This document shows positions 30,910 through 45,428 of a stretch of 64,000 nucleotides of DNA, in pieces; positions within the stretch are counted from its first letter, which is position 1; every line of letters begins with the position of its first letter. The translations under genes and the position numbers were made by a program. The DNA is from Dyella sp. BiH032. Lineage in GTDB: Bacteria; Pseudomonadota; Gammaproteobacteria; Xanthomonadales; Rhodanobacteraceae. Location: positions 4,464,001-4,528,000 of the forward strand of contig NZ_CP134867.1 of the NCBI RefSeq assembly GCF_031954525.1. The letters are read 5' to 3'. The notes under the pieces were generated by a model that had not been told where the DNA came from, did no database searches, and saw only the letters and a list, made by a program, of their open reading frames with translations.

Positions 30910-31290
30910 CACGGCTCCTCGAAAAAGAGGTTTGCCAACTTCCCTGCGCTGCTTATAGCCAGCGCACGCCAAAAAAAATGTCGACTGCTTTTCGTTGCCG
31001 CACCGGCGGCCTGCGCGCCTACCATGCCCCAGATACGCGACATCCCGCCAGAGGGCGGGATGTCGGAGGGCGCACCTGCGCAGGAAAAATGGTGCCGACA
31101 GTCTGACTCGAACAGACGACCTACCGCTTACAAGCGCGTTGGTGACGTTTCGTTGCGTCCCATTGAATTTGCATCAACCCTACGTTGAACCTAGTATTTG
31201 CAAGGCCTCGCGCCCCAACAATGCGACTTAAGGCAACAGACCGAAATTGAACGAGACGGCCACTTTTGTTGCCTAGGGTTGCCTATATCC
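30910..31290. other. Gap spanning left element boundary
   Basis: 381 bases without a gene. It holds the promoter side of the diguanylate cyclase, a perfect 12-base hairpin at 31038-31065 (CGACATCCCGCC and its complement, AGAG loop), the attL repeat at 31090-31134, and an integrase leader with three GTTGCC/GGCAAC copies (31232-31237 inverted, 31268-31273, 31278-31283) that could be arm-type integrase sites. Confidence 0.6.
31090..31134. repeat. attL: displaced 3' end of tRNA-Thr
   Basis: 45 bases identical to 45353-45397. They encode, on the minus strand, the CCA end, acceptor 3' strand, T arm and variable loop back into the anticodon stem-loop. The identity stops abruptly at 31135. Being only a fragment, it is not a tRNA gene; it marks the original 3' end displaced on integration. 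Confidence 0.95.
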
Positions 31291-32727
31291 ATGACCAAAA
31301 CAGCCACCCGCACAAGCCTCACACAACGCACTATCGATTCAATCAAGCCCACCGAAAAGCAGATCGACTATGCCGATAGCGTGGTCCGCGGACTGGCCTT
31401 GCGCGTATCGCCAGGCGGAGCGATGACTTGGGTGCTCATCAAGCGCCTGCCCGATGTTGGCGTGCGCCGCATTCGTTTGGGGCGCTACGTGCGCGGCGGC
31501 GAGCATTCCGCAGCTCCCTACCAGCCCGAGGACGGTTTCCCCTCCGGCAACCGGGCGTTGAGCCTGAAGCACGCACGCGAGGAAGCGACGCGTGTGCTGG
31601 CTCTCGTCAACGCTGGCCGGAGCCCGGCCAAGGAACGGATCCTGGCGGCCACCAAGCGAGCCAAGGAGGCTAGCCGCGGTACGTTCCGGGACCTCCTGCA
31701 GGACTATGTCGCCTGGCGTAAGGAAGGGACCGAGAAACGGGCGCCAGCCAGCGCCCGGCAGACCGATGAGTGGGTCAGGCTTATCGATCGCTTGGACAAG
31801 CTATCGCCAGGTATGCTCGACCTGAAAGCCGGCGAGATCGAACCGGCCCACATCGTTGCCCTGCTCCGCCCAGTGTTCCATTCGGGCATCCCCCGCCCGG
31901 CCAAGGGCAGAGGCAGCAAGGGGCGGCGGAGCACCGGAGGCGCCCAGGGTGGCGCCGACAAGCTGCAGACGTTCCTGCGCGCCGCTTTTGCCTACGGCCT
32001 GTCCTCTGAGCACTCCGTCGCCAGACGGGCAGTCCGCACGTATGGGCTTGTCCACAATCCGGTCGCGCCAATCCCTCGGGAAGCGAAGTCGACCCCAGTC
32101 ACCCGGGTGCTTTCTGCGGACGAACTGCGGCAGTTCTGGAACACGATTGGGCTAGCGCCCAACGTAGGGGAAGTCATGGCCCGCCTGCTCCGCTTCACGA
32201 TCGCCAGCGGCGGCCAACGTACCCATCAACTAGCCCGCGAGCCGTGGGCCTCGTACGACCTGGAGAACAAAGTCATTTCTCTTGTCGACAGGAAGGGCCG
32301 CGGCGGCCAACCCCGCGTGCATCTGGTCCCAATGACCAGCCGCATGGTGAAGATCCTCAAAGAGCTGCAGCCGTTGACGGGCAAACATGCCTACCCATGG
32401 TCTACCAATGAACGTACTCACATCGATATCGCGTCGCCCGCTGGCGCGGTGAGGTACTGGCTCGGGTCAGAACACGCGATGCTCTATGGGAGGCGGATTG
32501 CGCCGTTCACCCCGCGCGATCTGCGTCGCACCTGCGCACAAATGATGCAGGCGGCCGGCGTCCCTGACATCTCCGCGGACCGGCTGCAGAGCCATGGCAT
32601 CACCGGCGTGACCGGACTGCATTACCGAAACGCGGCGGCGCTCTACCTGCCGGAGAAGCTGGCCGCGTTAAAGGCGTTCGACAAGGCGCTCGCAAAAGCG
32701 CTCCGCAACTCGGATGCGACCCAATGA
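31291..32727 (+). CDS. int: Tyrosine-recombinase integrase
   Basis: 478 residues of the P4-like site-specific recombinase family. An N-terminal DUF4102-type arm-binding region is visible (SLTQRTIDSIKPTEKQIDYAD, GLALRVSPGGAMTWVLIKRL). The catalytic part has box I IASGGQRTHQLARE, box II PRDLRRTC (Arg for the usual His at the first position, as seen in some P4-like integrases), LQSHGITG and the nucleophile tyrosine in HYRNAA. Start ATG 31291 is 156 bases from attL, the usual arrangement for element-borne integrases targeting tRNA. Confidence 0.92.
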   Translation: MTKTATRTSLTQRTIDSIKPTEKQIDYADSVVRGLALRVSPGGAMTWVLIKRLPDVGVRRIRLGRYVRGGEHSAAPYQPEDGFPSGNRALSLKHAREEATRVLALVNAGRSPAKERILAATKRAKEASRGTFRDLLQDYVAWRKEGTEKRAPASARQTDEWVRLIDRLDKLSPGMLDLKAGEIEPAHIVALLRPVFHSGIPRPAKGRGSKGRRSTGGAQGGADKLQTFLRAAFAYGLSSEHSVARRAVRTYGLVHNPVAPIPREAKSTPVTRVLSADELRQFWNTIGLAPNVGEVMARLLRFTIASGGQRTHQLAREPWASYDLENKVISLVDRKGRGGQPRVHLVPMTSRMVKILKELQPLTGKHAYPWSTNERTHIDIASPAGAVRYWLGSEHAMLYGRRIAPFTPRDLRRTCAQMMQAAGVPDISADRLQSHGITGVTGLHYRNAAALYLPEKLAALKAFDKALAKALRNSDATQ

Positions 32728-33047
32728 CCGAGAACCGCCCGGAACCCGCATAGCAGAGCCATCGGCCAATTGATTTTTGTCTTCAATGCACTGTTTTTGT
32801 TGATGATTTACCATCGAGAGCGTTGACAATTCGGCATCATAAGCTACGATGTGATCGTCTTCGCTCGCTCTCCGGAAGGCGTTTACAAGGTTCCCCTGCA
32901 AAAAGCGTTGGCCAATCGATGGCCACCCGAGCGAAGGGAAACGCAGATAAGGATCCTTGTTCCCGCCCTCTGAATCCCCACTAGGCCGTGGGATTCAGGG
33001 GCGTGCATCTCCTCCGGCTATCGGCCACCTCTTAATCCAGGTGTCCC
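32728..33047. other. Long leader between integrase and AlpA
   Basis: 320 bases with no gene. It contains a good sigma-70 promoter (listed separately) and, about 120 bases after the predicted start site, a stem of about ten bases at 32971-32998 (TGAATCCCCAC with GTGGGATTCA, one bulge). The long untranslated leader with a hairpin suggests regulation of the alpA-led operon by attenuation or repressor binding. Confidence 0.5.
32823..32850 (+). promoter_or_regulatory. Sigma-70 promoter candidate for the alpA-led operon
   Basis: TTGACA (32823-32828), a 16-base spacer, and TACGAT (32845-32850), in the otherwise gene-free leader before alpA. This would drive alpA, the unknown gene and the replication protein as one transcript. 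Confidence 0.55.
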
Positions 33048-33281
33048 ATGACCGATTCCATTTCCCAGATCGAGCAGTCTCACGACCGCGTCGTCCCCTA
33101 TTCGTCGCTGAAAACCGAGTACGGGGTGCCCTACACCCGCGTGCACCTTCTTCGGCTAGAGAAAGCGGGCAAGTTTCCAAAACGGTTCCGAGTCGGTGGC
33201 CGGAAGGTGGCTTGGTTTGCGCGCGAGCTTCGCGCGTGGCTCGAAGAGCGCTCCGCTTCTCGCACGGAGAATGGGGCATGA
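33048..33281 (+). CDS. alpA: AlpA-family transcriptional activator
   Basis: 77 residues. Winged-helix excisionase/AlpA fold: VVPYSSLKTEYGVPYTRVHLLRLEKAGKFPKRFRVGGRKVAWFARELRAWL. In P4 and in gram-negative PICIs, AlpA-type proteins turn on the excision and replication genes. It overlaps the next gene by four bases (ATGA), so it heads a three-gene operon with the replication protein. Confidence 0.9.
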   Translation: MTDSISQIEQSHDRVVPYSSLKTEYGVPYTRVHLLRLEKAGKFPKRFRVGGRKVAWFARELRAWLEERSASRTENGA

Positions 33282-33784
33282 AGGCCGCCGCTCGCGCGCT
33301 CCCTGCCAATGTCCCCATTCGGATCCGGGACCAAGAAACCATTTCCGAAGTGAAAGGGCTGATCAACGACCGCATTGAAGGTCGACTGCCGGAAGATCCC
33401 GGCATTGAAATTAGCCTTCTGTCGAACTCGGATTCGGATGCTCCTGAAGACTTGGCGCCCGCACTCCCCGGTGAGCGGATATTTCAAGTCGACCTGTACG
33501 TCGATGGTGGACACGTTCGCTTCATCGTAAGCACGCTCGGCCGCCCCGGTAGCGAACTGATCGGCTACACGTCGGATGAGCTGCGGAAGGGAGAAACGCA
33601 ACTGCGCAAAGTCATCGCGACCGCACGCCGAGAGGGCCGCGTCTCAGCGGACTCGCTCGGCGTGCTGTGGGATTACGAAGCCATGCTAGGCGCCCCCGCG
33701 GATTCTCCGGAGCGCTGGCAGCCCATTTCCCCTACGGATGAGATCATCGCGCATGCCATCTTTTGGCCGGAGGGCGGCAAGTGA
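33278..33784 (+). CDS. Unknown protein of the satellite replication operon
   Basis: 168 residues, acidic in the middle (SLLSNSDSDAPEDLAPALPGE). No family recognised. Its start overlaps alpA and its stop overlaps the replication gene by one base (TGATG), so it is translationally coupled to both and is probably needed with them. Longer upstream reading in the same frame is out of register with alpA and lacks a ribosome site. Confidence 0.75.
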   Translation: MKAAARALPANVPIRIRDQETISEVKGLINDRIEGRLPEDPGIEISLLSNSDSDAPEDLAPALPGERIFQVDLYVDGGHVRFIVSTLGRPGSELIGYTSDELRKGETQLRKVIATARREGRVSADSLGVLWDYEAMLGAPADSPERWQPISPTDEIIAHAIFWPEGGK

Positions 33785-35694
33785 TGTCGACTCCCCAGGA
33801 ACTGGCGGCCCAGGGCTTCAATGTCTTTCCATTGCGCCCCAACTCCAAACTGCCGGCCATATCGAACTGGCAGACGAGGGCCTCACGCGATGCCGCGCAA
33901 ATTGAGCGCTGGCTTGCCGCACATCCAGGCGCCAACTGGGGCATTGCGACTGGCCGGTTTGGCGAGGGTGACGCGCTGGTTGTCGTAGACATCGACAATA
34001 AGGGCGGCAAGAGCGGCGACGCCGCGCTGCTGGGGCTCGAACTGGAGGGGTGCGAGTTTCCCTCCACTCTAGAAAGCAGCACGCCGTCGGGTGGTCGGCA
34101 CCTGATCTACCGCGCTCCCGTGCCGGTCAAGCAAGGCGTGGACACGCTAGGCCCGGGGCTCGATATACGCAGTGCTGGCGGCTTCATCGTAGCCCCCGGC
34201 AGCATGATCGACGGCAAGTCGTATTCGGCCAACGAAGCCGAAACGCCTACGCCTGCGCCTCAATGGCTGATCGACCGGTGCGGCGCGCCACGTCCGAAGG
34301 CCGTCGACCGTACACCCCTGCCCGGCATTGACCCGCAGCGGGCGCGCGCTCGTGCGATCGAGTACCTCGCCCACCAGGCGCCGGAAGCCATCGAAGGCGC
34401 AGGTGGGGATGCCACCACTTTCCGTGTGGCAGCGAAACTGAAGGATCTGGGCATTGTCGATCCAGCGGACGCTTGCGCCCTGATGCTTGAGCATTGGCAC
34501 GATGGGTGCGGCTGGGCGCCGGACGACCTCGCCGTAAAGGTCAATAATGCTTACCTATACGGCACCAACCCTGCTGGATCGGATGCACCAGAGGCCCAGT
34601 TTCAGCCTGTCGAGACACCAGCCGCAGAAGCCAAGGCCCGGTACACACTGGAGACCATCGACGCGCTCCTAAGCAAACCGATCCCACCATGGCTCGTGCG
34701 CGGCATTCTGCCCAAGACTGGTCTTGGGGTGATCTACGGCCAGCCACGCTCCGGCAAGACCTTCCTCGTGCTCGATATAGCCATGGCAGTGGCCAAGGGA
34801 GAGCCGTGGGCCGGGAAACGGGTTACGCAGGGGAACGTGCTCTACATCGGCCTGGAGGGCCAGGTACGCACTCGCATCGATGCTTACAAGCGGCACCACG
34901 GCGGTGACTATTCCGGCTTCCGCGCAATCACAGGCGCAGGGCTGAGCGTGCTCGACTCGCGGGACATCAAAGATCTAATAGACGTCCTTCGTACCGAGAG
35001 CTTCTCGCCGTCACTTATCGTGATCGACACGCTCAATCGCGCCATGCCAGCCGGCGACGAAAATTCATCCGTCGATATGGGCGCCGCGATCGCTCAAGCC
35101 GGCCGGCTATCGCGCGCCTTCGGGTGCCTTGTCCTCTATATACACCACGCGTCCAAGGACCTAACCAAGGGTGCACGCGGTCACTCATCGCTACTCGGCG
35201 CCACCGACGCGGAGCTGCTCGTTACCGCGGAAGCTTCGGGCGCCCGTCGACTGAAGATCACAAAGGCAAAGGATGCAGAGGATGGGCTGGAGTTCGGCTT
35301 TAACCTCTCCGTGGTGGATCTAGGCCCGGCGCCCGATGCTCCAGATGAGCGAATCACCTCGTGTGTCGTGACTGACCTCGCGTCTTGCGCACCCGCTCGC
35401 GGAGGTAAGACGCTCAACTGGACGCCCGATCGCACGCTCGTGCGCAACGCATTTGTTACCGCGCTAGCTTCGGCTAGCGGGGCGGACTTCGACGCGCCAG
35501 CCCAGTGCACCACGGCGCAATGGCGGGCCGCTTTCTTCGAGCAGAACCCGCTGGGCGATGATCTTCGCGGTGCCGAGGCAAAGGCTGCGGCAAAGGTGCG
35601 GCAAAAGAAGTTCGAGCGGGGGAAAGACTGGCTGGTATCGGAACGTATCGTGCGTCAGTTCGAGGGGAAGGATCTGTACGAAGCTCCATCTTGA
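33784..35694 (+). CDS. PrimPol / AAA ATPase replication protein
   Basis: 636 residues in two parts. N-terminal bifunctional primase-polymerase domain (1-200): catalytic DxD in VVVDIDNKGG and the TPSGGRHLIY motif. C-terminal RepA/RAD55-like helicase ATPase (290-520): Walker A GQPRSGKT and Walker B LIVIDTLNRAMPAG. Such PrimPol-helicase fusions start replication of satellites and plasmids at iteron origins. The only origin-like sequence is 745 bases downstream (36439-36540). Confidence 0.9.
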   Translation: MSTPQELAAQGFNVFPLRPNSKLPAISNWQTRASRDAAQIERWLAAHPGANWGIATGRFGEGDALVVVDIDNKGGKSGDAALLGLELEGCEFPSTLESSTPSGGRHLIYRAPVPVKQGVDTLGPGLDIRSAGGFIVAPGSMIDGKSYSANEAETPTPAPQWLIDRCGAPRPKAVDRTPLPGIDPQRARARAIEYLAHQAPEAIEGAGGDATTFRVAAKLKDLGIVDPADACALMLEHWHDGCGWAPDDLAVKVNNAYLYGTNPAGSDAPEAQFQPVETPAAEAKARYTLETIDALLSKPIPPWLVRGILPKTGLGVIYGQPRSGKTFLVLDIAMAVAKGEPWAGKRVTQGNVLYIGLEGQVRTRIDAYKRHHGGDYSGFRAITGAGLSVLDSRDIKDLIDVLRTESFSPSLIVIDTLNRAMPAGDENSSVDMGAAIAQAGRLSRAFGCLVLYIHHASKDLTKGARGHSSLLGATDAELLVTAEASGARRLKITKAKDAEDGLEFGFNLSVVDLGPAPDAPDERITSCVVTDLASCAPARGGKTLNWTPDRTLVRNAFVTALASASGADFDAPAQCTTAQWRAAFFEQNPLGDDLRGAEAKAAAKVRQKKFERGKDWLVSERIVRQFEGKDLYEAPS

Positions 35695-35703
35695 AGCGCG
35701 GCC

Positions 35704-36396
35704 CTAGTCCAACAAGCGCCCCTTCTTGGTGGTCATTGCCGCAAAGTCAAAAGTACCGTGCTTGTAGCCGGTAGACGAAGTGCCCAGGTTTACGCCGCCG
35801 TACAAGCGGACCTGCCACGCAGATACTTGTGAATCATCGGCGGCCACAAACCCCCTGTATGCCAGCGCCCCACCGGCAAGACTATTACTCACCATGCTTG
35901 CCACGTGGCGGAGATGCTCGAACATGACGTCAAAGCGCCGTTGTCCCAGCGCATCGATAGCCAGGCCTTTCGCTTCATGCTCCGGGCCGAGCACCGTACC
36001 AAAGTGGTGATACAGAAGGCCGCGGCCAACGTAGGCCGCATATTGGATTAACTGCGATCCTCGAAAAAAGGTGGCGTGGGCATCCTCCGTGGATACGGGC
36101 GAGTACACCTCAAAGCCTTTGGCCATTTCACGCATCAATCGCGCGTTTTTCTGGATGCGCCGCCGTGCATCATCGAACAGGCGATTGGCAGCGGCGTGAT
36201 TGCCGGCAATGGGGAGCACGGCAACCAAATAGGTTTCGAGATCCGATTTCTTGTTATTGCAAGAAAGACAGGCCGGTACTTGCGGCAAATCTCCCCGCAG
36301 TTCTTCAGGGAAAAAAGCACGTGCCACGACGTGATCGCCAGTGGACGACGACCCTCCACAGTAAACACATGTTTTGCCCTTGAACTTCTTTCCCAT
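35704..36396 (-). CDS. HNH endonuclease-like protein
   Basis: 230 residues from ATG 36394-36396 with GGGGGCG upstream. The N-terminal HNH zinc-type motif is complete: CVYCGG, then GDHVVARAFFP, then CLSCNNKKSDLE. The C-terminal 170 residues are unassigned. HNH proteins assist cos cleavage in HK97-like phages but also act in defence; here the gene is convergent with the replication gene (nine bases apart) and not adjacent to terS, so its role is open. Confidence 0.85.
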   Translation of the reverse strand: MGKKFKGKTCVYCGGSSSTGDHVVARAFFPEELRGDLPQVPACLSCNNKKSDLETYLVAVLPIAGNHAAANRLFDDARRRIQKNARLMREMAKGFEVYSPVSTEDAHATFFRGSQLIQYAAYVGRGLLYHHFGTVLGPEHEAKGLAIDALGQRRFDVMFEHLRHVASMVSNSLAGGALAYRGFVAADDSQVSAWQVRLYGGVNLGTSSTGYKHGTFDFAAMTTKKGRLLD

Positions 36397-36438
36397 GACC
36401 GCGCCCCCTGTTTCCTCAGGGAAAGCATTCCATCGATT

Positions 36439-36540
36439 GGCGACAAAGGCGACAACTAAGCGACATGTCGCCTCTGTCTCCAAGCCATAGGGAAGGCGAC
36501 ACAGGCGACACCCCCCTTATAAGGGTGTCGCCTTGTCGCC
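36439..36540. repeat. GGCGACA iteron-like array, candidate replication origin
   Basis: Eight copies in 102 bases: direct at 36439-36445, 36448-36454, 36495-36501 and 36504-36510, one near-copy at 36459-36465, and inverted TGTCGCC at 36466-36472, 36526-36532 and 36534-36540. Spacing within pairs is eight or nine bases. GCGACATGTCGC at 36460-36471 is a perfect palindrome, and the second half is a long inverted repeat around CCCTTATAA. No coding potential. It lies between hnh and an HTH gene. Confidence 0.75.
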
Positions 36541-36546
36541 ATGGGG

Positions 36547-36735
36547 TCATCCTCTGGTTTGCACCAACTGGTCTTTCTCCCAAGCCTCCAGCTTGTCGAG
36601 TGGATACAGCACTCGCTTGCCGAACTTCTGGTACGGCGGACCCTTGCGCCTATTGCGCCAGCCTTCCAACGTTTTGACCTTCAGCCGCAGGCGGGCGGCG
36701 ACTTCTTCAGGGGTGAGGTGCATAACCGCCCCCAT
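36547..36735 (-). CDS. Small helix-turn-helix (HTH_17 type) protein
   Basis: 62 residues, MerR/excisionase-like: MHLTPEEVAARLRLKVKTLEGWRNRRKGPPYQKFGKRVLYPLDKLEAWE. Probably binds DNA as a regulator, or as a recombination directionality factor for the integrase. A GGAGG eight bases before ATG 36735 supports the start. It ends seven bases from the iteron array, which could be its target. Confidence 0.85.
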   Translation of the reverse strand: MGAVMHLTPEEVAARLRLKVKTLEGWRNRRKGPPYQKFGKRVLYPLDKLEAWEKDQLVQTRG

Positions 36736-36738
36736 GGT

Positions 36739-37056
36739 CTACGCCTCCGCACACGCCGCGATGAAGTCCGCATGCTGCTCCGGCCTTAGCTGTCGGAGGC
36801 TGTCGACGCCGAACCGCTCGAGCAAAGCGACAGGGACGCCCACGTTGGATATCCCATGTTTGGCCTGCAGGGCAGACATAGCCCGGCGCACGTCATCGGG
36901 CACGGGATGCTCTGGCAGGCGGATCGCCGGATGAGGGCTCTCCGTGGCGCAATCCTTTTTCGAATCTGCCGCGCCCTGTAAGGCAACTGCTCTGAGTGTG
37001 TCGAGAATCCGTTCGCCGTCTTCGATGCTGTCGACTTCGATCTGAAGAATAAACAT
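36739..37056 (-). CDS. Unknown phage-type protein
   Basis: 105 residues starting MFILQIEVDSIEDGERILDTL, with AGGAGG upstream. The C-terminal part (HGISNVGVPVALLERFGVDSLRQLRPEQHADFIAACAEA) looks like a helical tail seen on phage recombination or single-strand binding helpers, but I cannot name the family. It is three bases upstream of the HTH gene on the minus strand. Confidence 0.75.
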   Translation of the reverse strand: MFILQIEVDSIEDGERILDTLRAVALQGAADSKKDCATESPHPAIRLPEHPVPDDVRRAMSALQAKHGISNVGVPVALLERFGVDSLRQLRPEQHADFIAACAEA

Positions 37057-37179
37057 GGCCTTCCCTCCTGTTGGTGGCAGATGCCACAGCGCGCATCCTG
37101 CGTCGCCAAAAAAAACCAGTCAAATCAATTATTTATGTTGATAAAACCACATCACCCCAATCGATTAGGGGGCGCAGTG

Positions 37180-37302
37180 ATGCCAAAACCTCATCGCCGC
37201 CCCGGCGAAAGCGCGGCGGAGTTGGCTTTCCGGGAGTCGGTGATGTCGAAGGGGGTGTTGTCGCTTTGTCAGCACCGCGGTTTAGCCCAAAGAAAAACAT
37301 AA
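37180..37302 (+). CDS. Possible 40-residue small protein
   Basis: Starts ATG 37180 after AGGGGG; basic and hydrophilic, MPKPHRRPGESAAELAFRES onward. It lies in a 503-base stretch with AT-rich segments between divergent gene groups. No family. It may be spurious. Confidence 0.3.
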   Translation: MPKPHRRPGESAAELAFRESVMSKGVLSLCQHRGLAQRKT

Positions 37303-37559
37303 ACAGCAACTAAACGCAGAGCCTCCTTCGCCCGTTTGCTGCCAGCTACTCCAGCCCACCGCTCGCGCGCACGCGCGAGGAACTGGTCCGGCCGCAGCCG
37401 CCTTCAAGCCCCCATCTACTGCTATGTATGCAGTAGGTCTTACCTCTTTCAGTCGGTCGAAATTCAGCAATTACATGAGACAATTCAATCGCTTATCGAC
37501 TATGACATCGCCCCGCAAGACAACACTAGGCAACATTGGCGCACAACTCAGGACATCGA
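37303..37559. other. Leader upstream of the packaging genes
   Basis: AT-richer than its neighbours at both ends. The divergent minus (36547-37056) and plus (37560 onward) transcripts probably start around here. I see no confident promoter hexamers or structured element. Confidence 0.35.
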
Positions 37560-38174
37560 ATGTTCAAACGGAGCCCGTCCGCCGCCGTAGTTACGCAGGT
37601 ACAGAGCCAGCACGAGGCCGCCAAAGCCCGGCTGGAGGCCGCCCGCACGACGTACGCCGTCACGGTCCAGGAGCTGACCCAGGAAGGCGCAGTCGATCTT
37701 CAGGCCATCGCCAAGGCGCGCGCCAAGGTCGATGCCGCAGAGGCCGAGGAACGCGCCGCTCGCGACGCGCTGGGCACCGTGCAGGCCCGCCAATCGGCAG
37801 CGGAAGCCGAAGCCGCACGTAAAGCGACTGAAGCCCGCTACGACGAGGCCATCCGCGCCGCAAAGGCCCGCGCCGAGACTTCGCGGACCATCGCTCGCCT
37901 CCTTGGCGAATTGGCCGCGGCCTACGAACAGATGAACGCTCAGACCGCGACCATCGCTCGCGCTCTCCCCGACGCCAAAGATGCTGACGGCGCGGTTCTG
38001 CGCCAGCCACAAGTCGACGGCCTGCTGAGGCTGGAGATGTACCGCATTGGCTTGCCAGGCTTCATAGGGATGCAGCCGCGGCACGAAGTTGCGCCGATCG
38101 ACGACCGATTTGCAGAGACTGCCGGCCTGCTCCTGAGCTGGAAGCAGTGGACTTTGGGGGCGATGCATGGATGA
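37560..38174 (+). CDS. Coiled-coil phage protein of unknown function
   Basis: 204 residues from ATG 37560 with AGGAC seven bases upstream. Residues about 15-125 form an almost continuous Ala/Glu/Arg/Lys-rich coiled coil, with a less ordered C-terminal domain. It overlaps the next gene by eight bases and stands first in the plus-strand packaging/tail block. Confidence 0.7.
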   Translation: MFKRSPSAAVVTQVQSQHEAAKARLEAARTTYAVTVQELTQEGAVDLQAIAKARAKVDAAEAEERAARDALGTVQARQSAAEAEAARKATEARYDEAIRAAKARAETSRTIARLLGELAAAYEQMNAQTATIARALPDAKDADGAVLRQPQVDGLLRLEMYRIGLPGFIGMQPRHEVAPIDDRFAETAGLLLSWKQWTLGAMHG

Positions 38175-38715
38175 GAATGCCGCTGCATCGACTACGGCCG
38201 AGGCGCTTGGCGTTCCGAGCGCCCCAGCCAGCACTCCCGAGGCCGAAACCAAGGCCGCCCTGCCCCTGGCCCAAACGGATCCCGTGGCCGACGCCATGGA
38301 AGCATCGTTCTGGGACGAAAGCGCTCACCCCGGACGCTACAGCTTCGATCAGCCGCCGCCCGGCGTTCAGCACAGCCCCCAGCAAGAACTGCAGGTTCGC
38401 CAGCTGTTCGCAGAAGAAAGGTTGCCGCCCGAGATCGGCCGGCACATCACTACCCTGTGGAATCGCGCCCTGCTGAATCCCCCCTCTCATGAAAGCAATC
38501 TGGCCGCGATGCAGCAGGTCACCGCAGATATCTCCCGTCACGATCCAGTGCGCGGTGCCGAAACCATTCGCTTGGCACAAGCGGAGATCCAAGCGATTGC
38601 CAAGCGCAATCCCGCGATCCTCGACATGCTCGAACAGAGCGGTCTAGGTAACGATCGTTGGCTTATCGAGCACTTGGCCAATCGAGCGCGTGCCCGCGCT
38701 AACCGCGGCAAATAA
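38167..38715 (+). CDS. Unknown phage protein, possibly scaffold-like
   Basis: 182 residues. A disordered Ala/Pro/Glu-rich N-terminus is followed by helices and a C-terminus ending ILDMLEQSGLGNDRWLIEHL then a basic tail. That ending recalls phage head-scaffold or internal proteins, but the likeness is weak. It overlaps terS by one base (TAATG), so it probably works with packaging. Confidence 0.65.
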   Translation: MDENAAASTTAEALGVPSAPASTPEAETKAALPLAQTDPVADAMEASFWDESAHPGRYSFDQPPPGVQHSPQQELQVRQLFAEERLPPEIGRHITTLWNRALLNPPSHESNLAAMQQVTADISRHDPVRGAETIRLAQAEIQAIAKRNPAILDMLEQSGLGNDRWLIEHLANRARARANRGK

Positions 38716-39245
38716 TGGCTCGTCAGCTCAACCCGCAGCAGCGTCGATTCATCGCCGCTTACCAAACGGGCATCACGGCTACGCAAGCAGCCATCGAAGC
38801 CGGCTACTCCGCTAAGTCCGCCAAGTACATCGCGCACAAACTGCTGCACGAGAACCCGCTCGTCCGCGAGGAACTCGATCGCATCAGCGGTAAGTGGGCT
38901 GACGAAGCGGAATACAACCTTCAGCGCTTTATGCAGGACTTGGCTAGAGCCGAAGCGCACGCAGTGCGCACCAATAACGCCAACGCCTTGGTCAAAGTCA
39001 TCGAGCTAAGAGGCAAGGCGGCCAATCTGCTGCGCGAAAAGGTGGACATCACCGTCGAGCGCGTCGACGTAAACGGCGCTCTGGCAGAGGCAAAAGCGCG
39101 GCTGTTGCGACCTATGTGCGACTCGGCGCCAGCCATAGAAGGCGAGTTTGTTGCGCTGCCTGGCGTTGAGCGTGGTCGCTCAGTTGATAACGAATCAGTT
39201 GAACCGCCCTCCAGCATTTACGGCCAGCGGCTTTTCGAGCACTGA
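38715..39245 (+). CDS. terS: Small terminase subunit (TerS)
   Basis: 176 residues. The N-terminal helix-turn-helix is the Terminase_2 signature: LNPQQRRFIAAYQTGITATQAAIEAGYSAKSAKYIAHKLLHENPLVREEL. The middle is helical, consistent with an oligomerisation core. TerS recognises the packaging site and recruits the large subunit. No large subunit gene follows, which fits a satellite that redirects a helper's terminase. Confidence 0.85.
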   Translation: MARQLNPQQRRFIAAYQTGITATQAAIEAGYSAKSAKYIAHKLLHENPLVREELDRISGKWADEAEYNLQRFMQDLARAEAHAVRTNNANALVKVIELRGKAANLLREKVDITVERVDVNGALAEAKARLLRPMCDSAPAIEGEFVALPGVERGRSVDNESVEPPSSIYGQRLFEH

Positions 39246-39387
39246 CGGCAATGGGGCCCCTCCTTTCGCCGCGACCGGGGGCCGGGTGGCGGGGTACCCC
39301 CGGGAATTGGCGCGCGAGTTCCACCCGGGGCCAGGGCTAGGCCGGACTTTTAATTTTTTCGCGTGAGGCTCTAAGGGGGGCCGCCGC
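39246..39387. other. GC-rich spacer between terS and tailspike
   Basis: 142 bases with runs of C and G and several inverted CCCGGG/GGTACC elements. It then turns AT-rich (TTTTAATTTTTTCGC) before the tailspike ribosome site. Candidate location of a packaging site, but unproven. Confidence 0.3.
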
Positions 39388-41430
39388 ATGACCGTCAACA
39401 CCAGCACAGCACAAGCGCAGTACACGGGTAACGGCGTAACCCACATATTCGCCATCCCCTTCTATTTCCTCGTCGATACTGACATCAAGATCAGCAAAAA
39501 GGCCGCAGCTACGGGTGTGGTCACCGTACTGGTGTTGAATAGCGATTACACCCTAACGGGTGCTGGCAACGGTGCGGGCGGGAGCGCCACCCTGGTTGCA
39601 GCCCCGGCCAGCGGCGATCAAGTCCTGATCGAGCGCAATGTTGCCGCTGTCCAGCAGACGGCGTACCCGTCCAACAGTGTTTTCCCTTCTGCCAGTCACG
39701 AAATGGCGTTGGATCGCCTGACCATGCTGGTGCAGCAGTTGCAGGTGGCGGACGGCCGCACCCTGACGCGTGGCGGCTTGGCGACCTCGTACGACATTAC
39801 CCCTTACGGCTTAACGGGTATTCCCACAGCGGTCAACCCGACAGACGCCGTGAGTCTGAGCCAGGCGCAGACGATAGCGGCCGGCGCAGCCGGCGGTATT
39901 GTCCCTAGCCTTATTGTCACCTACCCCGGCCTGGCCGCCGCAGGCGGTGCCGGGTATGTAGGTTTCCAGTTGGCGGATACGGGATCGGTCGCGCGCACCG
40001 CGCAGACCAAGATGCGGGATTACGTATCCCTGAAAGATTTCGGTGCGGTGGGCAACGGCACTACCGACGATACGGCAGCTATCCAGGCCGCGGTCAATGC
40101 CTGTGTGACTAGCGGAAAAACGTTGCTGGTCCCCGCCGGCAAATACCGAACCACTTCCGTCATCAGTGTAGGCGGCAAGCTGGACATGGTCGGTGAAGGT
40201 ACTTCTGTCGATCGAGGCACGGGTGTACCCGGTACGGGTTCGTGGTTCTACTTGAATCACAGCGGCCAAGGGTTCTTCCTGGTGACAACCCAACAGGGCG
40301 GTATCTTCCAGAAGTTCGGCACCTATCGCAGCCATCCGGCCCCTGGTGTGGGTTGGACGCCTACGGTTTACGACTACGACTTTTTCATGTCGCCGGCCGC
40401 GAACGAGTGGACGTTCAAAGACATGATGCTCTTGAACCCCTACAAGGGCATCAAGTGTTCAAATCGTCCCACGATCGATAATGTGAAAATGCACGCCTTC
40501 GTGGAAGGCATCTGCATCGATGACTGCCGCGACACCGCGCGTCTGCAGAACGTCCATATGTGGCCGTTCTGGTCTGAGGACACGAACGTCACTGCGTATA
40601 CGCTCAGCAACCTTAAGGCGTATCGGTTCCTTCGCGTTGATAACCCGACCATGGTTGGCTGCTTCTGCATCTTTGCCAATAAGGGTTTGTCGATCGAGAA
40701 TGGTGCCACCGGTACAACGTACGCACTGCGCGCAAGCTGCATCAACTTCGATGGTGTTGTGAACGGCCTTGTTGTGGATGCTGCCGCCACCGGCGCGACC
40801 ATGCAGGTTTCGAACATCATCGTTCAGAACAAGTACGACAGTGTGTCTGTCGGCGCGGGCGTCCAGATTGCAGGCACCAACTGCCAGGCCATCATTACCG
40901 GCCTGTCTGGCTACGATTTCCCGCAAGGCATTGTGCGCGTGGATGGCACGAGCAATACGGTCGTCGTCAGCAGCGCCTCGTTCTTCAACTGGGACCGCGC
41001 TAGCGCGGGTGTTCCCGCCGTTGTCTGCGGTGCCGGTAATTACTGCAGCGTGATCGATTACAGCGCGAGCAACACATTCAGCACGGTCGCCGCTCGATTC
41101 AGCGACAACGTAAAGACCAAGCACAATGACATCATCACAACCTCGGCCGTAGACGTACAGGCCGGCATGCAGCACGCCGGCAACATCGTGTTGATGAGCG
41201 CAACTCGGTTCCTATATCTACCCGGCCTGGTTTCCGGCACTGCGCAAAATCTACCCAATGGCACCCGCATAACCGTGGTCAATGCCCAGGGCTCAGGCGG
41301 CAACGTTACTGTCGCCCCCGTGTCCGGCGTTACCCTTTACCGTGGCGGCACGTCAACCAATATCGTCCTTTCCGCTGGAAGTGCTGTGACCGTGCTCAAG
41401 ACAGGTGATAACGCATGGATTGGACTGTGA
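39388..41430 (+). CDS. Phage tailspike, T7-like anchor plus beta-helix
   Basis: 680 residues. The N-terminal 110 residues (TAQAQYTGNGVTHIFAIPF through SHEMALDRLTMLVQQL) match the head-binding domain of podovirus tail fibres. A pectate-lyase-3 beta-helix follows from about residue 210 (VSLKDFGAVGNGTTDDTAAI), then a C-terminal trimerisation/beta-sandwich domain. Such spikes bind or cut capsular or O-antigen polysaccharide. It is the largest gene of the element and has no adjoining tail genes. Confidence 0.9.
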   Translation: MTVNTSTAQAQYTGNGVTHIFAIPFYFLVDTDIKISKKAAATGVVTVLVLNSDYTLTGAGNGAGGSATLVAAPASGDQVLIERNVAAVQQTAYPSNSVFPSASHEMALDRLTMLVQQLQVADGRTLTRGGLATSYDITPYGLTGIPTAVNPTDAVSLSQAQTIAAGAAGGIVPSLIVTYPGLAAAGGAGYVGFQLADTGSVARTAQTKMRDYVSLKDFGAVGNGTTDDTAAIQAAVNACVTSGKTLLVPAGKYRTTSVISVGGKLDMVGEGTSVDRGTGVPGTGSWFYLNHSGQGFFLVTTQQGGIFQKFGTYRSHPAPGVGWTPTVYDYDFFMSPAANEWTFKDMMLLNPYKGIKCSNRPTIDNVKMHAFVEGICIDDCRDTARLQNVHMWPFWSEDTNVTAYTLSNLKAYRFLRVDNPTMVGCFCIFANKGLSIENGATGTTYALRASCINFDGVVNGLVVDAAATGATMQVSNIIVQNKYDSVSVGAGVQIAGTNCQAIITGLSGYDFPQGIVRVDGTSNTVVVSSASFFNWDRASAGVPAVVCGAGNYCSVIDYSASNTFSTVAARFSDNVKTKHNDIITTSAVDVQAGMQHAGNIVLMSATRFLYLPGLVSGTAQNLPNGTRITVVNAQGSGGNVTVAPVSGVTLYRGGTSTNIVLSAGSAVTVLKTGDNAWIGL

Positions 41431-41530
41431 GGGCAAACCAAGTCCTAAAGGCACATTGCGCAGGCTTCGCCTATGCGAGTCAACAGGAAGCAGTCCGAAA
41501 GTCGGCTGAGCATCCAGCACTCTCCAGCCA

Positions 41531-41905
41531 ATGAGATTTCCAGTGCGTACAGCTGTCGCCCTCTGGTCGGATGTCGATCTCAATGGCTCGCCAGCCACGC
41601 CACAGCGCAGGCTGGTCGCGGCCATGCTTTGCGTTGCGATCAGTGACATCCAACGGTACGTCAGGCGCCGTCGAAAATCCCCTCTGGCGTCACCCAGGCC
41701 ATACGAGCTACAGGCGATCGCCTGGGTGGCCGATGATCGAAACACCGCGCCCTTTAGTTTTCGCTGGTGCTGTGATGTGCTGGATATCAATGTGCGCAAG
41801 GTCCGTAGCGCGTTCGCATATCAACCGAAGGGCTCTCCTAATCCAGCTACATACGTAGCGCACAGGTATGACGCAACGCCAGGGCCGAGGATAGCCACCG
41901 GGTAA
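41531..41905 (+). CDS. Unknown phage-type protein
   Basis: 124 residues from ATG 41531. The middle, RRLVAAMLCVAISDIQRYVRR and AIAWVADDRNTAPFSFRWCCDVLDINVRKVRSAF, matches a pattern I recall in phage proteins of unknown role with an HTH-like C-terminus. It could regulate late genes. No firm family call. Confidence 0.6.
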   Translation: MRFPVRTAVALWSDVDLNGSPATPQRRLVAAMLCVAISDIQRYVRRRRKSPLASPRPYELQAIAWVADDRNTAPFSFRWCCDVLDINVRKVRSAFAYQPKGSPNPATYVAHRYDATPGPRIATG

Positions 41906-42050
41906 ATATGGAGCGCCTAAAGGCGCAGCTCGGCGTACTTTCAGAAGCATTTGGACGCTCGACATCCCTTCATAGTGGTAGCTGGTACTCAATGCACTGG
42001 CGTCCCATCCGAATGGGATGGCAGGATCGGGGCTTGGCATGGAGACACTC

Positions 42051-42842
42051 ATGGAAGCGAACGTCGAAATTGCTGGAAAGTCTTTCACCCTTCAATCTGA
42101 TGATGCTTATCTAGAAGCAGTCGGCCCGGTGTTCGAACCGGAGATGGTTGCCCTCTTTCGCTGTTTTGCGCAAGGCACGGTTCTCGACATAGGCGCCAAC
42201 ATCGGGTGCACAGCTTTGGCGCTTTCATCGATGGCCGACGTTGTGCATGCATTCGAGCCGTCACCGAGCACATTCAGGTTACTCAGAACTAACACGTCGG
42301 TGGCTCCGAATATTGTGCTTCACAACTATGGACTCGGAGCCGAGAAGGGGGCATTCGAGCTGACGTTTGCACCAAACAATCGATCAGGCGGCTATGTTTC
42401 AAATCAGCTGAGGGCGAGCGAGGGTCACACGGTAGAGAGCATCGCTATCGACGAGCTTGATAACGTAGCTGGGCTGCTCAACCTAGACGCAATCGACTTC
42501 ATAAAAATCGATGTCGAAGGCTTCGAAGGAAGCGTCATAAAAGGGGGTACCAGAACCCTGAAGAAATTTAGGCCCGTCGTTGCGCTTGAGCTTAATCACT
42601 GGTGCCTCAACGCCTTTCAGCGCATAACGGTGCCGGACTTTCTAGATTCGCTGCGAGCGACGTTCCCGATTCTCTACGCTGTTCACGACGACACGTACCA
42701 GGATCTGCATGACTCTGACGAGAGCTACATCGTCATGCACCGCCATATCGTGATGATGAAATACCCCACGCTTGTGGGAGCATTCCATCCGAATCAAATG
42801 GCGCGGTTCCACGAACATTTCCGCCATGAGGCCGTGGCGTAA
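42051..42842 (+). CDS. FkbM-family methyltransferase
   Basis: 263 residues from ATG 42051, chosen for GGAGA at 42041-42045. SAM-binding motif VLDIGANIGCTALALSSM, then AFEPSPSTFRLLRTN, IDFIKIDVEGFEGSVIKGG and VVALELNHWCLN, all typical of FkbM. Members O-methylate sugars of glycans, glycolipids or natural products. On a phage satellite it may alter the host or lysogen surface glycan and block phage adsorption, or modify phage DNA/glycans; target unknown. Confidence 0.85.
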   Translation: MEANVEIAGKSFTLQSDDAYLEAVGPVFEPEMVALFRCFAQGTVLDIGANIGCTALALSSMADVVHAFEPSPSTFRLLRTNTSVAPNIVLHNYGLGAEKGAFELTFAPNNRSGGYVSNQLRASEGHTVESIAIDELDNVAGLLNLDAIDFIKIDVEGFEGSVIKGGTRTLKKFRPVVALELNHWCLNAFQRITVPDFLDSLRATFPILYAVHDDTYQDLHDSDESYIVMHRHIVMMKYPTLVGAFHPNQMARFHEHFRHEAVA

Positions 42843-42939
42843 AGTAGTTGATGATTTCTTGCCAAGCGGACCTCGGTAGCCGTAACTAGCCATACGTCCG
42901 GTCTCCAATGCCGAGACTGCTGAGGCATACCCTGGCCCC

Positions 42940-43329
42940 ATGGGGGCAGTCGAAGTTCAGTGGGTGCAACTCGGGATGCGGGGAGGCACTCCGCTATCCC
43001 GCTGGCACGCACACCTAGTGAGACCCTTCGTGTCTAGGGAGTTCGCCTGGCTGATCCGCCGTAACGGCGTCTGGCACCTTGAAATCATGCTGGGCGTTTC
43101 CCGTATCCGGGAGGTAGCGACCTACCAGCGCGAGGCGACAGCCATGAAGCACTTGGAGCGATGGATCGCTGCGAGGTCTCGCTGGGAGCGAACTGTGCTG
43201 GCGCGAGGTGCAGAAGATCCACGGGGCAAGTTTGATCGGTTTGCGCCGAACGCGTTCAAGCACCACTTAGCAGTGCAACTGCGCGAGATGTGGCGGGGAA
43301 AGCCGGAACCGTTCGACCACTTCGACTAG
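42940..43329 (+). CDS. Unknown tryptophan-rich protein
   Basis: 129 residues, rich in Trp and Arg (SREFAWLIRRNGVWHLEIML, WIAARSRWERTVLARG). No family seen. Start at ATG 42940 has a poor ribosome site, and a GTG or ATG slightly downstream (near 42975) is possible. The composition suggests real coding but the call is tentative. Confidence 0.5.
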   Translation: MGAVEVQWVQLGMRGGTPLSRWHAHLVRPFVSREFAWLIRRNGVWHLEIMLGVSRIREVATYQREATAMKHLERWIAARSRWERTVLARGAEDPRGKFDRFAPNAFKHHLAVQLREMWRGKPEPFDHFD

Positions 43330-43865
43330 AAGTGTGCCCCGGTCATCGGCTGCCGCGCGCGGGGTGTGCGCCGCCAGGACTCGCGGGGCGTTGCAACTAT
43401 AGGAGGGCGAGGTGGGAGGGCCAATCGGCAGAATCTGATTCTCTAACGACGGCGCCACGGCCGGACAGGTCGCTGCGGAATTATGGGCCACAGACCGTCG
43501 CAGGCTGACCGATGATTACCGCTGCGTACCGTTCAGCTTCCACCGGCATCGCTACGGGCGCCGGCTGGTTGCCGACGAAACACGTAATACCTGTCTTGCG
43601 CGGATCAGGAGCAGCAGACACCCGCTGTCGCGGCCTATGAGAGCTAGAAGCGGTATACATCAAATCATTGAATTGAAGCGATATTTTTCACCCGAGCACG
43701 GTCTCTTAACCTATCAGAAAGGCCGGTGCATAAACCTGTGGATAAATTGTAGACATCTGGGCAAAATGGCGCTCGTCCAGTGCAGTGGACGCACGGAATT
43801 TGTGTTGGCTGCAAGTCGTCCAGATACTTGCTATGGCCACCGGGCTAAGCCCGAAGGAAGGCGTT
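43330..43865. other. Gene-poor stretch before the toxin-antitoxin genes
   Basis: 536 bases. The first half is GC-rich with short incoherent frames; the second half (43650-43800) is AT-rich and probably carries the promoter of the Panacea gene. I see no RNA gene or strong hairpin. Confidence 0.4.
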
Positions 43866-44417
43866 GTGTTCAAGCCAGAGAAAGTCGCTCAGGTAGCGGC
43901 TTACCTGCTCAGAAAAGAAGGCCGTCCGGCCCCCTACATGAAGTTGCTCAAACTCATGTATTTGGCGGATCGGGAGAGTGTGCGCCTCTATGGAGATACC
44001 TTATCTGGGGATCGACTTGTATCGATGCCCCACGGACCGGTGCTATCGCTCGTTTACGAACTAATGAACGGCGCGCGAGAGGACGACCATTGGTCGCGAT
44101 GGATAGCAGCGCGCACGGCGTATGACATCAACACCACCGCTCAAAGTAACCACTGGGATTTGGACGAGTTGTCTGGACCGGATCGCGAAATCCTCGACCA
44201 GACTTATGCACGCTTCGGCGCGATGTCCCAGTGGGATCTTCGGGACTGGACGCATAAAAATTGTCAGGAGTGGGAAGATCCCAACGGTTCCAGCTTCGAT
44301 ATTAAGCCCGAGAAGCTTTTCTTAGCCCTCGGCGTTGAAGAGAAAGAAGCCAGCGAGCGGGCTGAGAAATATCGCGAGAGGCGGTCCCTCGATCGAGTGC
44401 TGAGCCGGTACAGGTAG
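43866..44417 (+). CDS. Panacea-domain protein (SocA-like antitoxin)
   Basis: 183 residues starting at GTG 43866 after AAGGAAGG, giving MFKPEKVAQVAAYLLRKEG, the usual Panacea opening. Core motifs: PYMKLLKLMYLADRESVRLYG and DRLVSMPHGPVLSLVYELM. Panacea (DUF4065) proteins are chaperone-like antitoxins paired with diverse toxins in PanAT systems. A short gene follows five bases later, the expected layout. An upstream ATG (43785) is in frame but lacks a ribosome site. Confidence 0.85.
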   Translation: MFKPEKVAQVAAYLLRKEGRPAPYMKLLKLMYLADRESVRLYGDTLSGDRLVSMPHGPVLSLVYELMNGAREDDHWSRWIAARTAYDINTTAQSNHWDLDELSGPDREILDQTYARFGAMSQWDLRDWTHKNCQEWEDPNGSSFDIKPEKLFLALGVEEKEASERAEKYRERRSLDRVLSRYR

Positions 44418-44422
44418 ATCCA

Positions 44423-44839
44423 ATGGCTGCATGGACGCACGTCATTCAAAGGGGCACGATCTATGTCCTCACCGATCAGGGTAAGGAACACCTCCACTTT
44501 GTAATGAATGACCCCGCAGACGATATCGTCTATGGAAAGGGCGCGGTTCTACTTGTGCCCCTATGCAGCATCACTGCGTACGCGCGCGTTGACAGAACAT
44601 GCGTATTGCAACCTGGCTGCGGATTGAACTTTGTAAGACACGACTCTTACGTGTCCTATAGACACGCAGAAGTGTTGCGCGCCGAACCTCTTGAGATAGA
44701 TGTGAAGTCCGGCTTCATTCGAACCGGGCAGAAAGTGCCTGCGCCCCTCTTCCAATCGATAAGCGGGGGTTTCTATAAATCCCCACACACATCTACTCAC
44801 CAGAAGCTGATGGGGTTTTGTAAGCGCAACGGCATCTAG
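44423..44839 (+). CDS. Candidate toxin partner of the Panacea antitoxin
   Basis: 138 residues. RGTIYVLTDQGKEHLHFVMNDP, VLLVPLCSI, then GLNFVRHDSYVSYRHAEVLRAE looks like a small beta-barrel protein of the PemK/MazF-like group, in which H-x-SY-Y-R-A motifs are common. Five bases downstream of the Panacea gene, as expected of a PanT toxin. The toxin call rests on position and this weak likeness. Confidence 0.6.
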   Translation: MAAWTHVIQRGTIYVLTDQGKEHLHFVMNDPADDIVYGKGAVLLVPLCSITAYARVDRTCVLQPGCGLNFVRHDSYVSYRHAEVLRAEPLEIDVKSGFIRTGQKVPAPLFQSISGGFYKSPHTSTHQKLMGFCKRNGI

Positions 44840-44864
44840 ATAGATCACAAACTGAGGATAGGCC

Positions 44865-45296
44865 GTGCTTAACTGGATTGCCCGACAGCTAAGAGGAAAT
44901 TCTCAGCCTCAAAGTCAGTCATCCGACACACTTCGCTTCCGCGATGCTGACTCAGCGTTCGCCACGGAGTGCAAGTACACCGATAATCGAGTAGCGGAGA
45001 GAGTGGCGTTAGTAGCCATCATCCGAACTCTGAAGGTCAAGGAGGGCGAGGAGCCAGTCATCCTCGTCCAAGTGGCTGATGCCGATGGCCCGTTCGCTGC
45101 GTTCGCAATTGACCCTGCGGGTAAGCTTCCCGACCTCCGCGAGGGTGATTTGGTCGCTTGGCTTGCATTCTCGTACTCCGATACCTTGTCCCTCGTACTG
45201 GGAGATAAGCGCTCGGGCTGGATGGGCGTCCTAACTGCAAAACTCTCCCTTACCTACGACTCCCATCGCGGCTTCATTCCCGAATCCGTTGCCTAG
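44865..45296 (+). CDS. Unknown third gene of the toxin-antitoxin locus
   Basis: 143 residues, starting at GTG 44865 after AGGATAGG. The middle alternates strands and short helices (ERVALVAIIRTLKVKEGEEP, DLREGDLVAWLAFSYSD). No family known. It follows the putative toxin by 25 bases and ends 56 bases before attR, so it is the terminal cargo gene of the element. Confidence 0.65.
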   Translation: MLNWIARQLRGNSQPQSQSSDTLRFRDADSAFATECKYTDNRVAERVALVAIIRTLKVKEGEEPVILVQVADADGPFAAFAIDPAGKLPDLREGDLVAWLAFSYSDTLSLVLGDKRSGWMGVLTAKLSLTYDSHRGFIPESVA

Positions 45297-45318
45297 CAGT
45301 TGCCTTATCGAACAACAA

Positions 45319-45344
45319 AAAAGCCCGCGTCTCCGCAGGCTTTT
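45319..45344 (-). terminator. Terminator downstream of tRNA-Thr
   Basis: Stem AAAAGCC, mismatch, GCG against CGC, mismatch, GGCTTTT; T run on both sides, so it can end tRNA-Thr (minus) and the last cargo gene (plus). It lies inside the element, meaning the element brings its own terminator for the tRNA it targets. Confidence 0.8.
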
Positions 45345-45352
45345 GATTTCCT

Positions 45353-45397
45353 TGGTGCCGACAGTCTGACTCGAACAGACGACCTACCGCTTACAAG
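45353..45397. repeat. attR: 3' part of intact tRNA-Thr
   Basis: The right copy of the 45-bp direct repeat (see 31090-31134). It coincides with the 3' half of a functional tRNA, so the incoming element restores the gene it entered. Confidence 0.95.
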
Positions 45398-45428
45398 GCG
45401 GTTGCTCTACCAACTGAGCTATGCCGGC
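45353..45428 (-). tRNA. tRNA-Thr (anticodon TGT)
   Basis: 76 bases including encoded CCA. 5' acceptor GCCGGCA pairs with TGTCGGC at the 3' end (one G-T), D-loop AGCTCAGTTGGTAGAGC, anticodon arm ACCGC-CTTGTAA-GCGGT with anticodon TGT, T arm with TTCGAGTC. Discriminator A. It is the integration site of the 14.3 kb element. Confidence 0.97.

Follow-up and report, generated by a model that had tools for sequence, protein, structure and literature searches.

The closest described systems are the phage-inducible chromosomal islands (PICIs), a class of satellites, elements that PMC13376191 describes as typically devoid of structural genes. SaPI1 (of the Staphylococcus aureus pathogenicity islands, SaPIs), PmCI172 and EcCICFT073 have a small genome, an integrase acting at a fixed site, AlpA in the gram-negative members, a primase and, in some, TerS; some have heads about one-third of the helper's, and the C-terminus of SaPI CpmB matches the helper scaffold (passages of PMC6893505 and PMC6092414). 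A capsid-protein homologue is also carried by some PICIs (PMC6092414), and many, though not every one, have a gene that redirects capsid size. Here an island of 14,263 bp, start to start of its flanking repeats, is described from Dyella sp. BiH032. It lies in a window of 64,000 nucleotides (assembly GCF_031954525.1, contig NZ_CP134867.1, positions 4,464,001 to 4,528,000), to whose numbering the coordinates refer. Like the PICIs, the island has an integrase with attachment (att) repeats at a fixed site, AlpA, a PrimPol with seven iterons, and terS, and it gave no matches to terL, portal, head or tail-tube genes. Unlike them, it carries a tailspike of helper kind, and its relatives carry gp14, gp16 or gp17 of the ejection type; the helper is epsilon15-like, and TerS matches that of the helper in the C-terminal third only. 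Judged by its genes, the island is very probably a satellite of epsilon15/phiV10-like podoviruses. Its membership of the PICIs is partial, since tailspike and ejection genes are absent from PICIs as described, and a preliminary description of this DNA had rightly set the spike outside the usual PICI set. That description also took integrase, AlpA, replication and TerS as the gram-negative PICI set; all four are present, but terS occurs in some such PICIs and not in all (passages of PMC6092414).

Other systems divide the virion in other ways. The capsid-forming PICIs (cf-PICIs) likewise split virion parts with the helper, but the split is reversed: they bring head and packaging genes (passages of PMC10690885) and, by the title of a cited article, take only tails, whereas here spike or ejection genes are brought and no head genes. 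The cf-PICI set of own capsid, portal and TerL was not found in the island by the helper queries given below. MiniFlayer resembles the present family in encoding a tail fibre, with a putative adsorption module; unlike it, MiniFlayer and MulchRoom, both of Streptomyces, have genes for capsid and packaging and lack an obvious replicase, and the MiniFlayer fibres bind the neck of the helper virion (passages of PMC10690885). EcCIMP1 is a PICI with two AlpA genes packaged by vB_EcoP_Kapi1, a podovirus by name (passages of PMC11773190), and differs in that the terms terS and tailspike are absent from that article. The Uetakevirus phages epsilon15 and phiV10 hold the phage counterparts of gp14, gp16, gp17, the tailspike N-terminus and gp6, but each is a complete phage of 39 kb that also has TerL, portal, head, tail and lysis genes; an epsilon15-like prophage set (TerL, portal, capsid and tail) was not found in the island by the same queries. 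P4-like satellites have the Psu, Sid, delta and epsilon genes. Pfam was run on 17 island proteins and PHROG on 10, and no P4 family was among the matches, no search having been aimed at P4 models. In the open-licence PubMed Central literature, covered in part and with preprints outside the scope, no satellite was recognised that combines a borrowed head with ejection proteins or a tailspike of its own. Provisionally, this combination is what is new; a satellite with its own tail fibre (MiniFlayer), and its own capsid too, is already known.

The boundaries of the island are as follows.

31090..31134, no strand: att repeat distal to the tRNA, a perfect 45-bp copy of 45353-45397
45353..45397, no strand: att repeat within the tRNA gene
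45353..45428, minus strand: tRNA-Thr(TGT), the integration target

The two repeats are 45 bp long, 100% identical, and copy the 3' end of tRNA-Thr(TGT). The GC content is 0.66-0.72 in the flanks versus 0.54-0.65 across most of the island. The site is empty in two of five congeners (G003 and G004), where the 45-bp site is about 170 bp away from the left-flank gene and is followed by the tRNA and the right flank; in the other three the 45 bp and the right flank are present, with no left-flank match within the 1.5 kb examined. The 14.3-kb element first proposed at tRNA-Thr is thus confirmed by its perfect repeats and by the empty sites, and each item of the gene set noted with it (integrase, AlpA, PrimPol, iteron-like array, TerS and tailspike) is supported by Pfam or PHROG matches or by the repeat count. 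From the tRNA-distal end the order is integrase, AlpA, orfB, PrimPol-AAA_25, an HNH-like gene on the opposite strand, iterons, orf105, orf212, orf182, TerS, tailspike, and then cargo up to the tRNA.

The island is not a one-off remnant but belongs to a recurring family of six similar elements. A TerS search over 233 genomes of the host family matched eight, of which six were analysed as elements (the island and five others). The two left out were G081 (30% identity, on a 5.4-kb contig) and G140 (50 residues); G012 (L024), with a PrimPol match but no TerS by tblastn, was also omitted from the family. The five relatives are listed with their length, site and late genes.

Dyella ginsengisoli LA-4 (G102): 13,241 bp, tRNA-Thr(TGT), gp16 (phrog_1145) and gp17
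Frateuria terrea CGMCC 1.7053 (G010): 14,336 bp, tRNA-Thr(TGT), gp17
G134: 14,802 bp, tRNA-Thr(TGT), tailspike and gp17 (phrog_684)
G005: 13,886 bp, tmRNA, gp14 (phrog_418) and gp17
G226: 13,167 bp, tRNA-Thr(TGT), gp16

Each of the six comes from a different species of the host family, and they span 13,167-14,802 bp, start to start of the repeats. Those of the relatives, copies of tRNA-Thr(TGT) or tmRNA 3' ends, are 83-99% identical, the lowest value being that of G226. Relatives of AlpA and PrimPol, and TerS, occur in all six elements; G005 has a different tyrosine integrase, and the PrimPol of G134 and G005 carries a DUF5906 domain, like that of a helper-type phage. One common order and orientation is kept by the island and the D. 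ginsengisoli, Frateuria and G226 elements. In G005 and G134 the replication module and TerS lie on opposite strands; G134 also has its orf212/orf182 pair behind TerS and its spike ahead of gp17. A search for the same gene order in related genomes at other sites, suggested in the preliminary description, was successful in part: five relatives were found, one of them at tmRNA, but the order differs in G005 and G134. The subset of late virion genes 3' of TerS (tailspike, gp17, gp16 or gp14) differs between elements, the island having the tailspike, and G226, G005 and G134 retain a stretch matching the small helper gene just ahead of the first tail gene.

Helpers were sought by gp17 alignment against IMG/VR, in which 80 of the 329 loci found were kept and the four at 51% identity or more were taken as helpers.

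G249: 33.5 kb, epsilon15/phiV10-like
G250: 42.3 kb, epsilon15/phiV10-like
G251: 25 kb, epsilon15/phiV10-like
G252: 34.8 kb, epsilon15/phiV10-like

By the modules that they share with the satellites these podovirus contigs look like helpers. They follow the phiV10 order (TerS, TerL, portal, scaffold, capsid, tail genes, gp14, p18, gp16, gp17, tailspike), with TerL and portal in all four and TerS in three, G252 beginning inside TerL. A tyrosine integrase is found in three of the four records, so these three are probably temperate; the view that they are virulent, taken from a DNA polymerase A, was dropped on the same finding. In G250 the integrase is split across both record ends, which suggests a permuted, near-complete genome. 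The satellites are about one-third as long as a helper genome.

The genes that the satellites lack were searched with 15 helper queries covering TerL, portal, scaffold, capsid, two small late proteins, two tail proteins and p18, each of which matches, at E <1e-10, the helper record it came from and one or more others. Nothing in the island fell below E 0.05 (best 0.052), and the same held for all six elements. The claimed absence of TerL, portal, head and tail genes is upheld by these queries, which also did not find the missing structural genes elsewhere in the element. The absence of lysis genes extends to the general family scans: none was among the Pfam or PHROG matches, and no query search was aimed at them.

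The packaging end of the island consists of TerS and a noncoding block behind it.

38715..39245, plus strand: TerS, chimeric, with an N-half of PF03592 (E 8.3e-15)/phrog_51 and a helper-type C-terminal third
39251..39359, no strand: noncoding block common to helper phages, directly 3' of terS, a candidate packaging or late-control site

The N-half of TerS belongs to phrog_51/PF03592 in the satellites versus phrog_1482 in the helpers. When aligned alone, N-halves matched in 15 of 15 satellite pairs (E <=1e-12), whereas none of 18 satellite-helper pairs fell below E 0.1; the C-terminal 72 residues matched in all 18 (E about 1e-3 or lower). In five of the six elements the C-terminus favours one helper clade by identity. 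Global identity is 45-54% to G249/G250 versus 27-37% to G251 for the island, D. ginsengisoli, G226 and Frateuria, and 52% to G251 versus 40-42% to G249/G250 for G134. In known TerS proteins the N-terminal half is the DNA-binding part, and in lambda and P22 the C-terminal end binds TerL (passages of PMC9611059). Whether TerS here is a modular adaptor, with a C-terminus matched to the helper clade and an N-terminus marking satellite DNA, is an even call, taken jointly with the proposal of a family with its own delivery end. Satellite-like TerS was found in 14 phage records, from Bacillus and Synechococcus phages, at 35-37% identity, and none was found in plasmids. TerS aligned at 39 or more loci on viral contigs and, among the matches listed, only L088 also has orf212 and orf182 homologues. 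In this 5.1-kb viral contig the TerS, orf212 and orf182 homologues are followed by a TerL gene, so that the carrier of the module is either a phage or a satellite that has a TerL itself.

The block of about 110 bp is found behind terS in six satellites and three helpers; five of the six satellites match the helper block directly, and G226 matches other satellites only. Its typed core, at eight mismatches or fewer, occurs once each in four of six satellites and two of three helpers and nowhere else on the scanned helper pieces, and is more diverged in the remaining three sequences. The block may serve packaging or late control. In one helper-type phage an HNH_3/NUMOD4 homing-type endonuclease gene (L192:10252-10776) lies between terS and terL, directly behind it.

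Two genes ahead of TerS bear on head assembly.

37536..38174, plus strand: orf212, coiled-coil-looking by eye, ahead of orf182 in all six elements
38167..38715, plus strand: orf182, scaffold-like, a short relative of the helper scaffold and phiV10 gp6 by profile match (phrog_458 weak)

Against the helper scaffold profile orf182 scored a probability of 85% (E 6e-6 over 96 columns), with no match by direct tblastn; orf212 matched neither the helper scaffold nor phiV10 p08. Both genes are clear in D. ginsengisoli (45% identity for orf212, 58% for orf182), and orf182 is significant in G226 (E 8e-5). In alignment orf212 is 22-45% identical and, outside D. ginsengisoli, is assigned from position and size. 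By the parallel with CpmB, which alters head size in SaPIs (passages of PMC6893505), orf182 may be a head-size factor.

The delivery end of the island is a tailspike, directly behind the block.

39388..41430, plus strand: tailspike, intact, 680 aa; PF12708 (E 1e-11), and the tail-protein families phrog_13893 (E 7e-36) and phrog_1640 (E 2e-34)
39388..40107, plus strand: residues 1-240 of the tailspike, its virion-anchor part; identity to the spikes of helper loci L109-L112 is 56-61%

Residues 1-285 match the solved tailspike 28lx (E 7e-12), and the receptor part, which follows the beta-helix start, shows little conservation against four helper-type tailspikes. A helper-type anchor joined to a weakly conserved receptor part gives a concrete basis to the idea that the spike could retarget helper-made particles. 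The anchor model matched 26 of the 233 genomes. Its first 133 positions are matched by the island and G134 only; in the other 24 genomes the match begins no earlier than position 134, the common beta-helix start. A whole-spike scan of viral contigs gave one partial match only, and an AlphaFold2 model from five aligned sequences had a mean predicted local distance difference test score (pLDDT) of 33, too low to be of use.

In four relatives the gp17 family (phrog_684) is present at full length, found in the host family only in these satellites; three partial matches (G082, G166 and G189) bring the count to 7 of 233 genomes. Satellite gp17 is 72-80% identical to the nearest helper. Against G251 the values are 80% for G134 and 74% for G005; the gp17 of D. 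ginsengisoli and Frateuria is 69-74% identical to G249, G250 and G252, and identity across the two groups is 51-57%. On the gp17 tree satellites are placed in each of the two phage groups, which requires three or more switches between phage and satellite, and those of D. ginsengisoli and Frateuria form a clade with 100/100 support. Shuffled labels score as low in 192 of 500 cases, so the satellite label is not clustered beyond chance, as an exchange of gp17 would predict. The gp17 of G134 (L022:3801-7088) has 1096 aa, about 220 beyond the other gp17 proteins, in an insert that looks coiled-coil by eye.

The remaining genes of the island serve integration and replication or are cargo. The former group lies at the tRNA-distal end.

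31291..32727, plus strand: tyrosine integrase, 478 aa from ATG; PF13356 (E 1.1e-11), phrog_1 (E 2.4e-28)
33048..33281, plus strand: AlpA-type regulator/excisionase; PF05930 (E 1.4e-7), tblastn match in all five related elements
33278..33784, plus strand: orfB, 168 aa, no family; 46% identity in the D. ginsengisoli element
33784..35694, plus strand: PrimPol-AAA_25 replication protein, 636 aa; PF09250 (E 5.8e-37), PF13481 (E 3.8e-36)
35704..36396, minus strand: HNH-like protein, weak matches only (phrog_10378 E 1.5e-4; Pfam HNH E 0.04)
36439..36540, no strand: iteron-like array, seven copies of GGCGACA/TGTCGCC, a putative origin
36739..37056, minus strand: orf105, partial identity to helper protein L197:4681-5382

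The integrase is 62-67% identical to those of four of the five related elements, and the N-half of PrimPol is 60-65% identical to the PrimPol of helper loci L112 and L194. The seven copies in the array compare with 37 across the whole window, and the GGCGACA 7-mer occurs nine times between PrimPol and orf212 in the Frateuria element; the array would act as the replication origin. In orf105 the C-terminal 54 aa are 39% and the N-terminal 22 aa 59% identical to the helper protein, whose middle is missing in the satellite. In PADLOC the HNH-like protein weakly matches PDC-M01B and PtuB (E 2e-4 to 1e-2), and its gene is a possible defence gene.

The cargo lies between the tailspike and the tRNA.

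42018..42842, plus strand: FkbM-type methyltransferase; PF05050 (E 3.7e-18)
42940..43329, plus strand: o129, open frame only
43785..44417, plus strand: Panacea-domain antitoxin-like protein; PF13274 (E 6.7e-22)
44423..44839, plus strand: o138, no family, begins 5 bp behind the Panacea gene, of which it is a possible partner
44865..45296, plus strand: o143, open frame only

The FkbM gene adjoins the tailspike, and phiV10 has an O-antigen acetyltransferase next to its own tailspike; from this parallel, the receptor glycan may be altered. A second Panacea protein is present in the Frateuria element (L020:19142-19726, E 1.7e-17), and the Panacea genes of the two satellites are possibly toxin-antitoxin cargo. 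The cargo of the G226 satellite includes an aspartyl-protease-like gene (PF13650; L019:15165-15692).

The best explanation of the whole, and a likely one, is a satellite that itself determines packaging specificity and contributes a scaffold-like protein and some of the delivery apparatus. Upon induction, integrase and AlpA would excise the island, and PrimPol would replicate it from the iterons. The N-terminal domain of TerS would bind satellite DNA while its helper-type C-terminus docks on the helper large terminase, and helper motors would fill helper-made heads with satellite DNA. The orf182 protein, perhaps with that of orf212, would compete with the helper scaffold, small heads being possible. 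In the island, the helper-type anchor of the spike would seat on helper-made tails and its beta-helix part would pick the receptor, changing the tropism; the relatives would supply ejection-type proteins (gp14, gp16, gp17), or gp17 and a spike, instead. The balance tips slightly toward incorporation of the spike into satellite particles. The chances are equal for and against the more general proposal, that these satellites use the helper's shell, portal and motor but place their own delivery end on helper-compatible anchors, so that satellite genes would set the destination of the DNA.

Several results weigh against this explanation. A helper-type portal was found in none of the 233 genomes, that of BiH032 included, with a model that finds all four helper records and phiV10; there is thus no case of satellite and helper sharing a cell. 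No viral contig had the satellite integrase, so packaged satellite DNA has left no trace there. For 3 of the 18 satellite-helper pairs, TerS aligned at full length matches across the N-half too, so that remote kinship of the N-halves is possible there, and the G005 C-terminus has no preference by global identity (42/39/38%), BLAST leaning to G251. The orf182/orf212 pair in Frateuria, G005 and G134 is assigned by position and weak alignment, with its place behind TerS in G134, and the structure model of orf182 is helical with a pLDDT of 67.5 and a best Foldseek viral match of E 0.12. With spikes in only two of six elements, the spike does not count as a core gene. As a separate observation, phrog_332 (the E15-type portal) matched in 10 of the 233 genomes, none of them the six carriers, at 28-125 bits versus 838 for phiV10; these distant matches are probably other podovirus prophages.

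The chief alternative, itself unlikely, is that the spike and ejection proteins are weapons or passengers and that satellite particles use helper parts alone. Such proteins could disturb helper assembly or adsorption in a dominant-negative manner, or a free spike could strip host receptors. The virion genes differ between elements, some of which have just one, a pattern that fits interference as well as replacement, and the FkbM methyltransferase beside the spike recalls the phiV10 acetyltransferase, which is annotated for superinfection immunity. A poison could be shorter, however, than gp17, whose satellite frames are full length (859-1096 aa), and both the anchor and the receptor part of the spike are whole. 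The ratio of nonsynonymous to synonymous change (pN/pS) in pairs with a satellite also speaks against poison or passenger, being 0.22-0.42 for gp17. TerS (0.46-0.58) and the spike anchor (0.42-0.55) are less strictly kept, a further point against a satellite with its own delivery end. In these comparisons synonymous sites approach saturation, and some of the constraint may have arisen on phage branches.

That the island is a remnant of an epsilon15-like prophage, decaying in place after losing its TerL, head and tail genes, is improbable. The succession of TerS, shared block, gp16 and gp17 in D. ginsengisoli is the helper order minus its middle, and PrimPol and orf105 are likewise phage-related; an origin of the element by reduction is likely. 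Ongoing decay, however, is at odds with six species that have the same gaps, a common gene set, similar sizes (13.2-14.8 kb) and intact frames, a result that favours the satellite over the decayed prophage, the outcome which the preliminary description had named as its refutation. The scaffold-like gene, moreover, adjoins TerS and does not follow a portal, the N-half of TerS is foreign, gp17 was exchanged with phages more than once, and the helper-type portal is missing from all genomes searched. Least probable is an integrative genomic island without phage transmission that gained phage genes by chance, which the Panacea and FkbM cargo and the genome without a helper-type portal would suit, but not six elements that keep a terS with a helper-type C-terminus, the shared block, a scaffold-like gene and late genes.

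Satellites are generally expected to share the host range of their helper. If the satellite reading with its own delivery end is true, an own spike uncouples the two, and this could explain satellites reaching hosts closed to their helper. The family lends itself to testing TerS as a two-part adaptor, a DNA marker and a motor dock, as well as a scaffold homologue as a podovirus head-size switch, and to asking which virion proteins profit a parasite that brings them. Such parasites may choose which cells to enter.

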